Source: Nonomuraea sp. SYSU D8015 (GTDB taxonomy: Bacteria > Actinomycetota > Actinomycetes > Streptosporangiales > Streptosporangiaceae). From it: a stretch of DNA of 64,000 bases. Position numbers and translations under genes: made by a program. The stretch is from assembly GCF_008065375.1 (NCBI RefSeq), contig NZ_VJYI01000007.1, positions 62,001 to 126,000 of the forward strand, in the 5' to 3' direction. Shown here piece by piece: positions 43,398-47,903 of the stretch; within the stretch, counting starts at the first letter, position 1; every line of letters starts with the position of its first letter. The notes beneath the pieces were generated by a model. The model searched no databases and was not told the DNA's origin. It saw only the letters and a list, made by a program, of their open reading frames with translations.

Positions 43398-44057
43398 GTG
43401 ACCGCCTACGACGATCCCGACGCGTTCGAGTATCTGGACTTCTCGGCCCTGCCGCAGCGCCAGCAGCGGATCCTGGCCGCGATCCGCGACTGGGTGGTCA
43501 AATACGGCTACCCTCCCAGCACACGCGAGCTCGGCCGAGCGGTCGGGCTGCGGTCGTCCTCGTCGGTGTCGAAGCACCTGAGGAGCCTGGAGGAGAAGGG
43601 GTTCCTCCGCCGGGGCGCGACGATGAGCCGGCCGATCGACGTGCGCCTGTTCCTGCGGGCCTCGGCTCCGGAACCGGCCGACGACCTGGTGACCGTGCCC
43701 GTGGTCGGAGACATCGCCGCGGGCACCCCCATTCCGGCCGACGAGCACGTGGACGGCGCGCTGACCCTGCCCCGAGACCTCACCGGACGTGGCACCGTGT
43801 TCGGCCTCCGGGTACGCGGGGATTCGATGATCGACGCCGCGATCTGCGACGGCGACATCGTCGTGGTGCGGCAGCAGCCGGAGGCGTACTCGGGTCAGAT
43901 CGTCGCCGCGATGATCGACGGCGAGGCCACCGTCAAGGTGTACCGCCGACGTAACGGGCATGTCTATCTCGAACCGCGTAATCCCGCGTATGACGTCATC
44001 GATGGCGACGGCGCCGTGGTGCTGGGCATCGTGGTCTCGGTCCTGCGCAGCATCTGA
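43398..44057 (+). CDS. LexA-family repressor (second LexA-like protein)
   Basis: The 219-residue protein has the LexA winged helix (RQQRILAAIRDWVVKYGYPP, STRELGRAVGLRSSSSVSKH) and the latent peptidase domain. The self-cleavage pair is Ala108-Gly109 in VVGDIAAGTP, the nucleophile Ser143 in RGDSM and the general base Lys180 in TVKVYRR, so RecA-stimulated cleavage should be possible. It begins at GTG with no Shine-Dalgarno sequence and could be leaderless. The LexA of actinobacteria usually lies near nrdR; that gene is not here, which suggests a paralogue. I see no GAAC-N4-GTTC SOS box upstream. Confidence 0.9.
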   Translation: MTAYDDPDAFEYLDFSALPQRQQRILAAIRDWVVKYGYPPSTRELGRAVGLRSSSSVSKHLRSLEEKGFLRRGATMSRPIDVRLFLRASAPEPADDLVTVPVVGDIAAGTPIPADEHVDGALTLPRDLTGRGTVFGLRVRGDSMIDAAICDGDIVVVRQQPEAYSGQIVAAMIDGEATVKVYRRRNGHVYLEPRNPAYDVIDGDGAVVLGIVVSVLRSI

Positions 44058-45754: not shown

Positions 45755-46220
45755 CTCACCGATGCTGCCACGCTCGACGTCCCGCGCCACATCGTCGAGT
45801 TCCTCTCCCGTCTCCCGGCCAGGCATCGCCGCCGCTTGCGGACCCCGCGCGGGTCTCGGGCGCCGGCCCCGTTCCGGCAGGCCGTCCTGGTGCTGCCCTG
45901 GCTCAGGGAGCACGGCTGCGTCCACTGTCCGGCCCGCGATACCGGCATCTCGCAGGCCACCGGCTACCGCTACCTGCACGAGGGCATCGACGTCCTCGCC
46001 GACCAGGCCCCTGCCCGCACGAGATCCTGACGCACTGCCAGGCGTCCGGGATGACGCACGTGGTCCTCGACGGGCAAGGCGGCCGCCAAGGGCCTTTCCA
46101 CCCTCGTGGACAAGTGCTACATCGGCGCCGGCGTCCACGTCCCCGTCCGCAGCCCCCCGCGGCCGCTCCGAGCAGGCGACATCGCCCGCGCCGCCCTCGT
46201 CCTCGACGGCCAGTGGAAAT
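45755..46220 (+). pseudogene. Remnant of an IS5-family (DDE_Tnp_4-like) transposase
   Basis: Pieces in different frames read TLDVPRHIVEFLSRL, FRQAVLVLPWLREHGCVHCP, SQATGYRYLHEGIDVLADQA, MTHVVLDGQG and LSTLVDKCYIGAGVHVPVR. Together they follow the order of IS5/ISL2-type actinobacterial transposases (N-terminal HTH, then VVLDG, then the downstream DK-Y-GAG block). At least two frame changes and large losses in the catalytic core are evident, and I see no terminal inverted repeats. The element is dead. Confidence 0.7.
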
Positions 46221-46856
46221 GATCTCCGTTGAGGAAACCCCTCACCATCATCGGCGGCCGCGGACGGAAGCGCACCACGCGGACGGGTATCGGTGAGTTC
46301 GCCGCGATCGGCGCCACCCGGGTGCGTGCGGCCATGCGAGCAGGTCGGCGTGGGCGTCTGGGACAGGAGCAGGATCACGGACGCCCGCGCTCCCGTCGTC
46401 CGTGCAAGGACGCGGACGTACGCGGCCTGGCGTTGCCCTGCTGTGGCCTGCCCTCGTGGCGGCACGGCGGAGCGATCCGTTGCTGTGAGTTCGCTGGGAA
46501 TCGGATCATGCCCGTTCTCAGGCCCGGCGAAGTGATCTGGCCTGTTTACAGACAGTCACATCAACCGTTTGTCGGCGAGACGGGTTTCCTGTGGTGGGTC
46601 TTCACAGCTTGGCTGCCTTGTCGTGGCCATTCGGCGGTGTGTTCGAAAGCCTGCGCCCGTCACGCTGTGTGGTTCTTGACGGTATGTGACGATCTGTGGC
46701 CTGATGTGGGTGTTTGTTCTGGGATCTTTTAGATCCGCCTTATCGCTGTATGTGGAGTGAGTCCATGCCGCCTTGCCTCCAGACGCCTTGGGTCGATCAC
46801 GCAGCGTCGATGTGGCAATCACGCATGGTTGCACAGCAGAACTGGAGATGGATGAA
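46221..46856. other. Gene-free, locally AT-richer stretch before the secreted protein
   Basis: No frame here looks coding. The part from about 46540 is clearly less GC-rich than the rest of the window and probably holds the promoter of the secreted protein at 46857. A perfect dyad, GGATCT-TTT-AGATCC (46722-46736), lies about 120 bp before that gene; it could be an operator or an attenuator-like hairpin. Confidence 0.5.
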
Positions 46857-47903
46857 ATGAAGCGAATATCAGCCGTATTGGCCGTCGGCCTGCTGGTGTC
46901 CGGCCTCGTAGCCGCGCCGGCCGAAGCTTCCAGCGTGACGACGGCCCCTCTGGCCGATACTCAGGCGACCGCTGTCGAGGTGGCGGAGTTCTGGCTCGGC
47001 GATGGCGGCGCCAACCTGAGAAACGCCACTCCGTACAACGTCCAGACCGCCGTCGACAAGGTCTTTCCCCGCAGCGGCATCCCCATGGACACCAAGCCCG
47101 GTGTTGTCCCGCCGTCGCCCCCGTCCACCTCTGACGCAGCGGACGACAATAAGCCCGTCACCTCGGGCAAGGTATTCTTCGTCGGCGCCGACGGACAGCC
47201 GCACTGGTGCACGGGCAGCGCTGTGCAGTCGCAATACCGCAACCTCGTGGCGACCGCAGGGCACTGCGTGTACGACACCCAGCGCGCTGACGCCACCCTG
47301 GACAAGTGGGTGTTCGTTCCCGGCTACACCGGCGGCACGGCTCCGTGGGGTCTTTACGTCGGAAAACTGGTTTTCGGTCATTACGACTTCCGCGCGTACA
47401 ACGACTACGACCGCGACTACGCCTTCGTCACCGTTTACAGTGGCGTCGTCCCCTCCGCCTCGGGTGGATTGACCGACTTCGGAAGGCTGGTCGACAACGT
47501 CGGCGGACAGGGCCTGGCCTGGAGCCAGCCGCTGGACTCCGCAGTCGACGTCTTCGGCTACCCGGCCGGCACTCATCCCGACGGCAAGGGGCATTACACA
47601 GGTGAGACCATCGAATCATCCAGCGGTCGCACGGCGGGCGCGATGGTCCCCATCTTGAAGGCCGAGGAATTCATCGCCGTCGATTCCCCGTTCACCGGTG
47701 AAGGTTCCCTCGGCTCCTCCTGGTTGTCGCGCTATGACAACAGCAGCCGCATGGGATACCTCAACGGCATCACCATCAGCGTCGCCGACACCGATGGCAA
47801 TCTGCGGTACGACACGAGCCTGTCTCCATACTTCGATGGCGAACTGGCAGCGGTTTACGGTGCCGCCAAAGCGTCGTGGAGTGGCTCGCTCCTGCCCGGA
47901 TAA
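46857..47903 (+). CDS. Secreted trypsin-like (V8-type) protein, catalytic serine replaced by leucine
   Basis: The 348-residue protein begins with a Sec signal peptide (KRISAVLAVGLLVSGLVAAP, likely cut after AEA at about residue 24), a proregion, and a chymotrypsin-fold domain. His136 is in ATAGHC and Asp187 in DRDYAF. Where homologues have GEGSSGGPW, this protein reads GEGSLGSSW: the nucleophile position (285) is Leu, and the following GGP is GSS. The frame is intact, so it is probably a secreted non-catalytic homologue. ATG 46857 has GGAG 9 nt upstream. It is convergent with the aromatic operon across a hairpin terminator. Confidence 0.88.
   Translation: MKRISAVLAVGLLVSGLVAAPAEASSVTTAPLADTQATAVEVAEFWLGDGGANLRNATPYNVQTAVDKVFPRSGIPMDTKPGVVPPSPPSTSDAADDNKPVTSGKVFFVGADGQPHWCTGSAVQSQYRNLVATAGHCVYDTQRADATLDKWVFVPGYTGGTAPWGLYVGKLVFGHYDFRAYNDYDRDYAFVTVYSGVVPSASGGLTDFGRLVDNVGGQGLAWSQPLDSAVDVFGYPAGTHPDGKGHYTGETIESSSGRTAGAMVPILKAEEFIAVDSPFTGEGSLGSSWLSRYDNSSRMGYLNGITISVADTDGNLRYDTSLSPYFDGELAAVYGAAKASWSGSLLPG

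Follow-up and report, generated by a model that had tools for sequence, protein, structure and literature searches.

A predicted secreted trypsin-fold pseudoprotease with leucine at the nucleophile position in Nonomuraea, conserved in a clade of a family that also has Ser-type and other dead paralogues

To our knowledge, pseudoproteases of the trypsin type are familiar mainly from animals, and only a few have been studied in bacteria, one of them being MamO. In insects (serine protease homologues) and in scabies mites (inactivated protease paralogues), dead S1 proteins have multiplied beside active ones. MamO, according to excerpts of its description (PMC4794232), activates an active partner and has a metal-binding surface di-histidine, and excerpts of a survey that covered 966 serine proteases of prokaryotes report 42 predicted inactive homologues (PMC2605481). 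The protein analyzed here is encoded in a 64,000-nucleotide stretch of the genome of Nonomuraea sp. SYSU D8015 (contig NZ_VJYI01000007.1), referred to below as the window, and the solved proteins nearest to it in sequence are Anisep (3WY8, E 1.5e-11) and AL20 (3CP7, E 7.2e-9). The initial annotation of the locus proposed an inactive, secreted homologue of trypsin-like proteases, with a binding or inhibitory role as one possibility; the gene's coordinates, its intact frame and the signal peptide agree with what was given there (Table 1), and the inactivity of the protein is supported by the alignments and the model described below.

Table 1. Features of the pseudoprotease locus (positions within the window)
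Feature	Position	Strand	Remarks
Secreted trypsin-fold pseudoprotease gene (predicted), stand-alone Leu clade	46857..47903	+	intact ORF, 348 aa (sequence, model)
Signal peptide, residues 1-24	46857..46928	+	AxA-type end (Ala22, Ala24); boundary inferred
Pro-region-like segment, residues 25-100	46929..47156	+	alignment, model; boundary inferred
Double-barrel trypsin-like domain, residues 101-345	47157..47891	+	model, structure comparison
His136 codon, catalytic His position	47262..47264	+	retained in 59/61 rows
Asp187 codon, catalytic Asp position	47415..47417	+	retained in 60/61 rows
Leu285 codon (CTC), nucleophile position	47709..47711	+	Leu 58, Ile 1, Val 1, Gln 1 of 61 rows
Low-GC leader, GC 0.564	46481..46856	+	neighbours ~0.70
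Transposase gene remnant, IS5-like	45756..46184		~69-78% identity to IS5-family and other annotated transposase genes
Position aligning with the LexA-box-like operator of near relatives	46794..46812	+	degenerate in the window

The window protein scores 18.1 bits against the Pfam Trypsin family (PF00089), below the gathering cut-off of 20.6, and searches of NCBIfam and PHROGs with it gave zero matches. The AF2 model, calculated from a 55-row alignment (A1), has a pLDDT of 87.9, and all 998 chains aligned to it in the PDB comparison reached Z >= 8, which places the protein among the S1 (chymotrypsin) double beta-barrels. The best matches are Anisep (Z 27.0, rmsd 2.1 over 215 residues) and AL20 (Z 26.6), the next-best chain scoring 21.0. 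Both Ala residues of the AxA end are found in 54 of the 61 rows of the clade to which the gene belongs (the stand-alone clade, see below), and the pro-region-like segment exhibits conserved Trp46, Leu54 and Ala57, with a confidently modelled helix at residues 36-56. Of the His-Asp-Ser triad of active S1 peptidases, the window protein has the His and the Asp, with Leu in place of the Ser. In the phmmer alignment to 3WY8, Leu285 is paired with the nucleophile of that solved protein, which is the second Ser in its GSSGGPW motif, and His136 and Asp187 are kept, as the initial annotation had it.

The comparison of the 61 stand-alone rows with 58 rows of Ser-type relatives revealed that the substitution is one of several (chymotrypsin numbering is derived here from sequence). 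Position 285, Ser in 58/58 Ser-type rows, is Leu in 58 of the 61 stand-alone rows and Leu, Ile or Val in 60, so that the orthologues do share the change. Both members of a cysteine pair are gone: position 277 is Ser in 61/61 stand-alone rows and Cys in 58/58 Ser-type rows, and position 255 is Ser in 56/61 and Cys in 58/58, respectively. An inserted residue at position 282 (Glu in 48/61) corresponds to a gap in all 58 Ser-type rows. Position 288, invariably Pro in the Ser-type group (58/58), has lost it in 57 of the 61 rows (Ser 43, Ala 12, Pro 4, Gly 1, Thr 1). Position 307 is Ser in 57 Ser-type rows (Val in the remaining one) and has Ile 40, Met 9, Leu 4, Val 4, Ala 2 and Thr 2 in the stand-alone clade; it would be the Ser214-like residue, turned hydrophobic in most stand-alone rows. 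Gly283 (60/61), Gly286 and Trp289 (both 61/61) are retained. By these aligned residues, the stand-alone clade possesses a rebuilt site rather than a single lesion.

Two nearby serines might be considered as unusual nucleophiles of a still active hydrolase. Ser284 would come to the nucleophile position if the alignment were anchored upstream of the inserted Glu, and Ser287, two residues upstream of the invariant Trp, is nearly invariant itself (60/61; Gly 53 and Ala 5 in the 58 Ser-type rows). However, position 284 varies across the clade (Ser 49, Ala 10, Trp 2), so that Ser284 is no conserved substitute, the downstream Gly-x-x-Trp anchor sets Leu285 at the nucleophile position, and the putative Ser214 equivalent is lost as well. 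We regard a surviving hydrolase of this kind as very unlikely.

To place the gene among its relatives, family members were gathered from its own genome, 54 genomes of the genus, a sample of 297 genomes of the bacterial family, named genomes and extra fetched stretches. The loci gathered by then contained 268 matching open frames (247 distinct); of the 248 rows including the query, 11 with poor coverage were removed, and thinning of the other 237 at 93% identity left 195. The FastTree tree, calculated without the nucleophile loop, places the window gene inside the stand-alone clade of 61 rows, with the triads HDL (57), HDI, HDV, RDL and QGQ (1 each). A second tree was calculated with a mixture model for 60 rows, omitting the nucleophile loop and two more trait sites, after removal by hand of seven long or odd rows; here the stand-alone clade (23 rows) is set apart from all other rows by a branch with support 99.9, and a wider Leu clade (31 rows) has support 83. 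Since both trees recover the stand-alone clade with its common Leu, the Leu must be older than the split of these species.

According to a tally compiled by hand, an intact stand-alone gene is present in 31 of the 54 genus genomes, 9 of which have two clade rows, and one further genome (G007) has a degenerate copy. The genome of the window itself (G000) also encodes a Ser-type paralogue, e.g. at C6:19876-20952. Decayed copies are found at loci L053 and L142, and L053 and L084 lack a usable start. In a class-wide sample 61 of 345 genomes gave a match at E 1e-12; of 20 distant stretches taken from 17 of these genomes (18 stretches, from 15 genomes, lie outside the bacterial family), 17 have the Ser motif, two are unreadable (L163, L165) and one, L147 from genome G390, is of the Leu type. 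The latter, found outside the bacterial family, is split over two frames, has His replaced by Gln, and looks like a transferred, decaying gene. The larger family, i.e. the stand-alone genes together with the tandem arrays described below, is seen almost only in one bacterial family, which we take, from the named relatives, to be the Streptosporangiaceae.

The initial annotation offered loss under relaxed selection as one explanation of the Leu; this is not supported, as the Leu is common to almost all of a deep orthologous clade, and relaxed selection is rejected by the codon model (IQ-TREE GY+F3X4, residues 101-345). For 14 rows near the window gene omega is 0.123 (lnL -5411.9, compared with -5777.7 at best for omega 1), and for 13 Ser-type rows it is 0.049. 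For the array and Asp-type sets IQ-TREE left omega at its start value of 1.0, and a grid was used instead; the optimum was 0.07 in the array set (14 rows) and 0.05 in the Asp-type set (9 of the 10 chosen rows, one having been thinned out). Pairwise NG86 ratios are 0.27-0.37 for the window gene and the 12 relatives nearest to it, have a median of 0.56 over all pairs of the stand-alone clade, and lie between 0.5 and 1.7, in some cases above 1, for many close pairs. We attribute the high values to the codon bias of these GC-rich genes and to saturation, and we trust the codon model over NG86 because GC-rich third positions saturate. The stand-alone clade is under purifying selection, and its conservation shows that the gene is maintained. 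The window protein itself combines a retained fold and a lost catalytic residue with conservation by selection, as expected from the sequence of a pseudoprotease.

The unusually AT-rich leader and the dead transposase pointed out in the initial annotation are both supported (the ORFs of the latter gave no Pfam family match), and both are local to the window copy and leave the Leu change unexplained. The leader is at least 8 points lower in GC than the sequence farther upstream in only 14 of 58 stand-alone orthologues, i.e. it is no common trait; it matched nothing in Rfam and no promoter-like consensus in a promoter scan, and its predicted folding is not notable (z -0.12). Around the 61 loci (60 orthologues and the window) there are no conserved neighbours: apart from the gene's own overlapping frames, the largest flank cluster comprises 9 loci and is the sole one above 6. 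Over 20 kb the window has only the gene in common with genomes G046, G002 and G023, whereas the entire surroundings of the gene in G002 match those in G023 at 94-95%. The GC3 of the window gene is 0.80, compared with 0.886 and 0.897 for two neighbours and a clade median of 0.906. The distribution fits an accessory gene that moves, and the window copy itself could be ageing, given its low GC3 and the absence of the operator discussed below.

These features, i.e. the transposase remnant nearby, the low GC3 and missing operator, together with the decayed copies elsewhere (L053, L142), might suggest that the window gene was inactivated by chance recently and is decaying under relaxed selection in this strain. 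As regards the substitution, this is already contradicted, because the Leu is common to nearly the whole clade; moreover, omega is low, and all 39 places in the genus genomes matching at E < 1e-100 are free of internal stops. We therefore consider recent inactivation highly improbable.

LexA-box-like sites occur upstream of members of the stand-alone clade. The LexA consensus of S. venezuelae is tCGAAC-N4-GNNCGa, according to excerpts of PMC9380542. Two of the 61 rows have no usable start; among the other 59 stand-alone genes, the exact pattern TCGAAC-N4-GNNCG was found in the 250 bp upstream of 14, compared with 0.39 expected and at most 3 in 200 shuffles; as the rows are related, the 14 represent fewer independent events. 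The same pattern was found upstream of none of 118 paralogues (0/64 other dead genes, 0/54 Ser-type genes). Candidate operators lie upstream of L025, L026, L027, L029, L030, L033, L067, L045 and others. In footprints of two subclades the site is preserved, with opposite orientations, and the sequence on either side of it is mostly unconserved. A broader pattern, CGAWC-N4-GWTCK, occurs upstream of 30/59 genes; since it was picked after seeing the data, we rely on the published consensus. The window gene has no tCGAAC-N4-GNNCGa box within 600 bp upstream, and thus the sites bear on the clade rather than on the window copy. The perfect palindrome TCGAAC-N4-GTTCGA is absent in G000, G046 and G034. 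In the genus, recA has TCGAAC-N4-GTTCGG in 29/29 readable loci (of 30).

A LexA-like repressor gene is located about 2.8 kb upstream of the window gene (43398-44057, plus strand); as it was found in just 18 of 30 genus genomes (E 1e-60), it is probably an accessory LexA. For the protease-inhibitor gene sti of S. mobaraensis, LexA was found to bind the promoter and to activate it (excerpts of PMC11157053), which would be an encouraging parallel, by analogy only, for a possible LexA control of the pseudoproteases. If the operators are real, secreted pseudoproteases would be tied to the DNA-damage response.

Other dead paralogues occur in tandem arrays. Of 43 arrays, 34 combine Ser-type with dead genes, 5 have no dead gene and 4 no Ser-type gene (ten overlapping loci were omitted by hand, and a few of the arrays counted belong to longer ones); as a dead protein served as the query, this tally gives no unbiased frequency. 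Neighbouring array genes lie on one strand in 107 of 108 pairs. The alignments suggest that the Asp-type clade is a second conserved dead class: 25 of its 29 rows have the triad HDD (2 HDN, 1 SDN, 1 Ser), with His and Asp kept and the GGP loop otherwise intact (GADGGPW, GYDGGPW), e.g. in L146:1177-2751 (+), L145:7113-8333 (-) and L144:8598-13778 (+). A third class has Ala at the nucleophile position, e.g. L089:4241-5383 (+), L092:2998-4149 (-) and L101:2998-4104 (-); these genes, of a clade of 6 rows (GSAGAPW, GAAGGPW), lie next to Ser-type genes. Some members of the array Leu/Ile clade have His replaced by Ser, Asn or Arg, or Asp by Asn. A degenerate clade comprises 8 rows. The array members L102:5753-7042 (-), L114:4215-7018 (-) and L103:3-2824 (+) have lost all three triad residues (motifs GSC or GNC, RNY, and Leu) in frames that are still open. 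One origin for the Leu, Asp and Ala types was rejected (p-AU 0.0002, with one Ala row in the test); a single origin of the Leu and Asp types is not rejected (p-AU 0.18), and hence we claim at least two losses of the nucleophile rather than three.

In 27 long members the segment between the barrels is hypervariable (alignment A2): for 32 pairs with 80-90% identical scaffolds, the inserts have a median identity of 29%. A second model was calculated for a long array member of the Asp type. Its overall quality is low (pLDDT 54.6), but the insert is locally confident (residues about 207-366 of L146:1225-2751); the PDB matches listed are all protease folds with Z < 9. A malic enzyme gene, e.g. L146:8110-9606 (-), lies beside the arrays in many genomes (clusters of overlapping frames at this place in 21/34 loci); it was taken as ordinary.

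The arrays also bear on the idea that the stand-alone protein is a non-peptidase enzyme employing the His-Asp pair. These residues are almost invariant in the clade, but no family match points to another enzyme, and array paralogues have lost His, or have Asn for Asp, while their frames stay open. We regard such an activity as very unlikely.

As the alignments and the model show, the nucleophile Ser gave way to Leu in the ancestor of the stand-alone clade, with the cleft remodelled alongside and the product kept by purifying selection. Since dozens of relatives have the Leu as well, the window protein looks kept on purpose, for a job other than cutting, rather than broken, and it is very probably a conserved non-peptidase pseudoprotease of the S1 (chymotrypsin) fold, secreted and close to the Anisep/AL20 group. 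It would work without catalysis, by binding; this is a reasoned guess. The likeliest role would be to tune proteolysis outside the cell: the protein may be a decoy that draws off something directed at active proteases, e.g. an inhibitor protein, or it may act together with an active paralogue as its partner. This role is possible, and we propose it tentatively: the dead and Ser-type genes side by side in the arrays and the precedent of MamO speak for it, while the stand-alone gene has no conserved neighbour and does not adjoin an active paralogue, so that the partner idea rests on the arrays. Against these readings can be set the decay of some copies and an omega higher than that of the Ser-type group (0.12 vs 0.05). 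Weighed together, the pseudoprotease and tuning readings appear fairly probable.

Or perhaps the protein binds something unrelated to proteolysis, such as a metal, a glycan or a surface ligand? The metal binding of MamO, the retained His-Asp pair and the accessory, non-syntenic distribution would agree with this, but no ligand motif was identified at the level of sequence, and we consider it rather unlikely. A wider and more doubtful reading of the whole family, to which we incline less than to the tuning role, is that of a secreted protease/pseudoprotease system of the Streptosporangiaceae, in which active genes would be aligned with recurrently born dead paralogues (Leu, Asp, Ala, some with a hypervariable inserted domain) and accompanied by mobile stand-alone genes of the Leu type, many of them under damage control of the LexA type; the dead members would be the decoys or modulators of an arms race fought over proteolysis outside the cell. 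With dead and active genes adjacent in many species and more than one loss of the nucleophile, the question why a dead protease is kept becomes testable, and removal of the gene in these culturable soil bacteria could address it.

Pseudoproteases as a kind are already known, also in bacteria (MamO), while a description of the family reported here and its dead/active arrays was not met in searches of an open-access library. Dead S1 proteins of insects and scabies mites are animal proteins, and their lineage and loss events are unrelated to those of the bacterial clade. The survey of prokaryotic serine proteases agrees with our findings in reporting inactive homologues in bacterial genomes, and its excerpts describe neither a family nor a dead/active array of the window type (PMC2605481). 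MamO and the inactive MamE copies of magnetotactic bacteria resemble the clade as bacterial trypsin-like pseudoproteases with repeated loss beside an active copy, according to excerpts of PMC4794232, where position 193 of MamO is given as nonglycine; in the stand-alone clade the presumed equivalent, Gly283, is kept in 60/61 rows. MamO and MamE belong to a magnetosome setting, whereas the window clade has no such setting and is predicted to be secreted. Anisep and AL20 share with the window protein the fold and 23-26% sequence identity over about 215 residues; they are active, with a Ser nucleophile (GSSGGPW in 3WY8), in contrast to the window clade with its Leu and its changed loop and cysteines.
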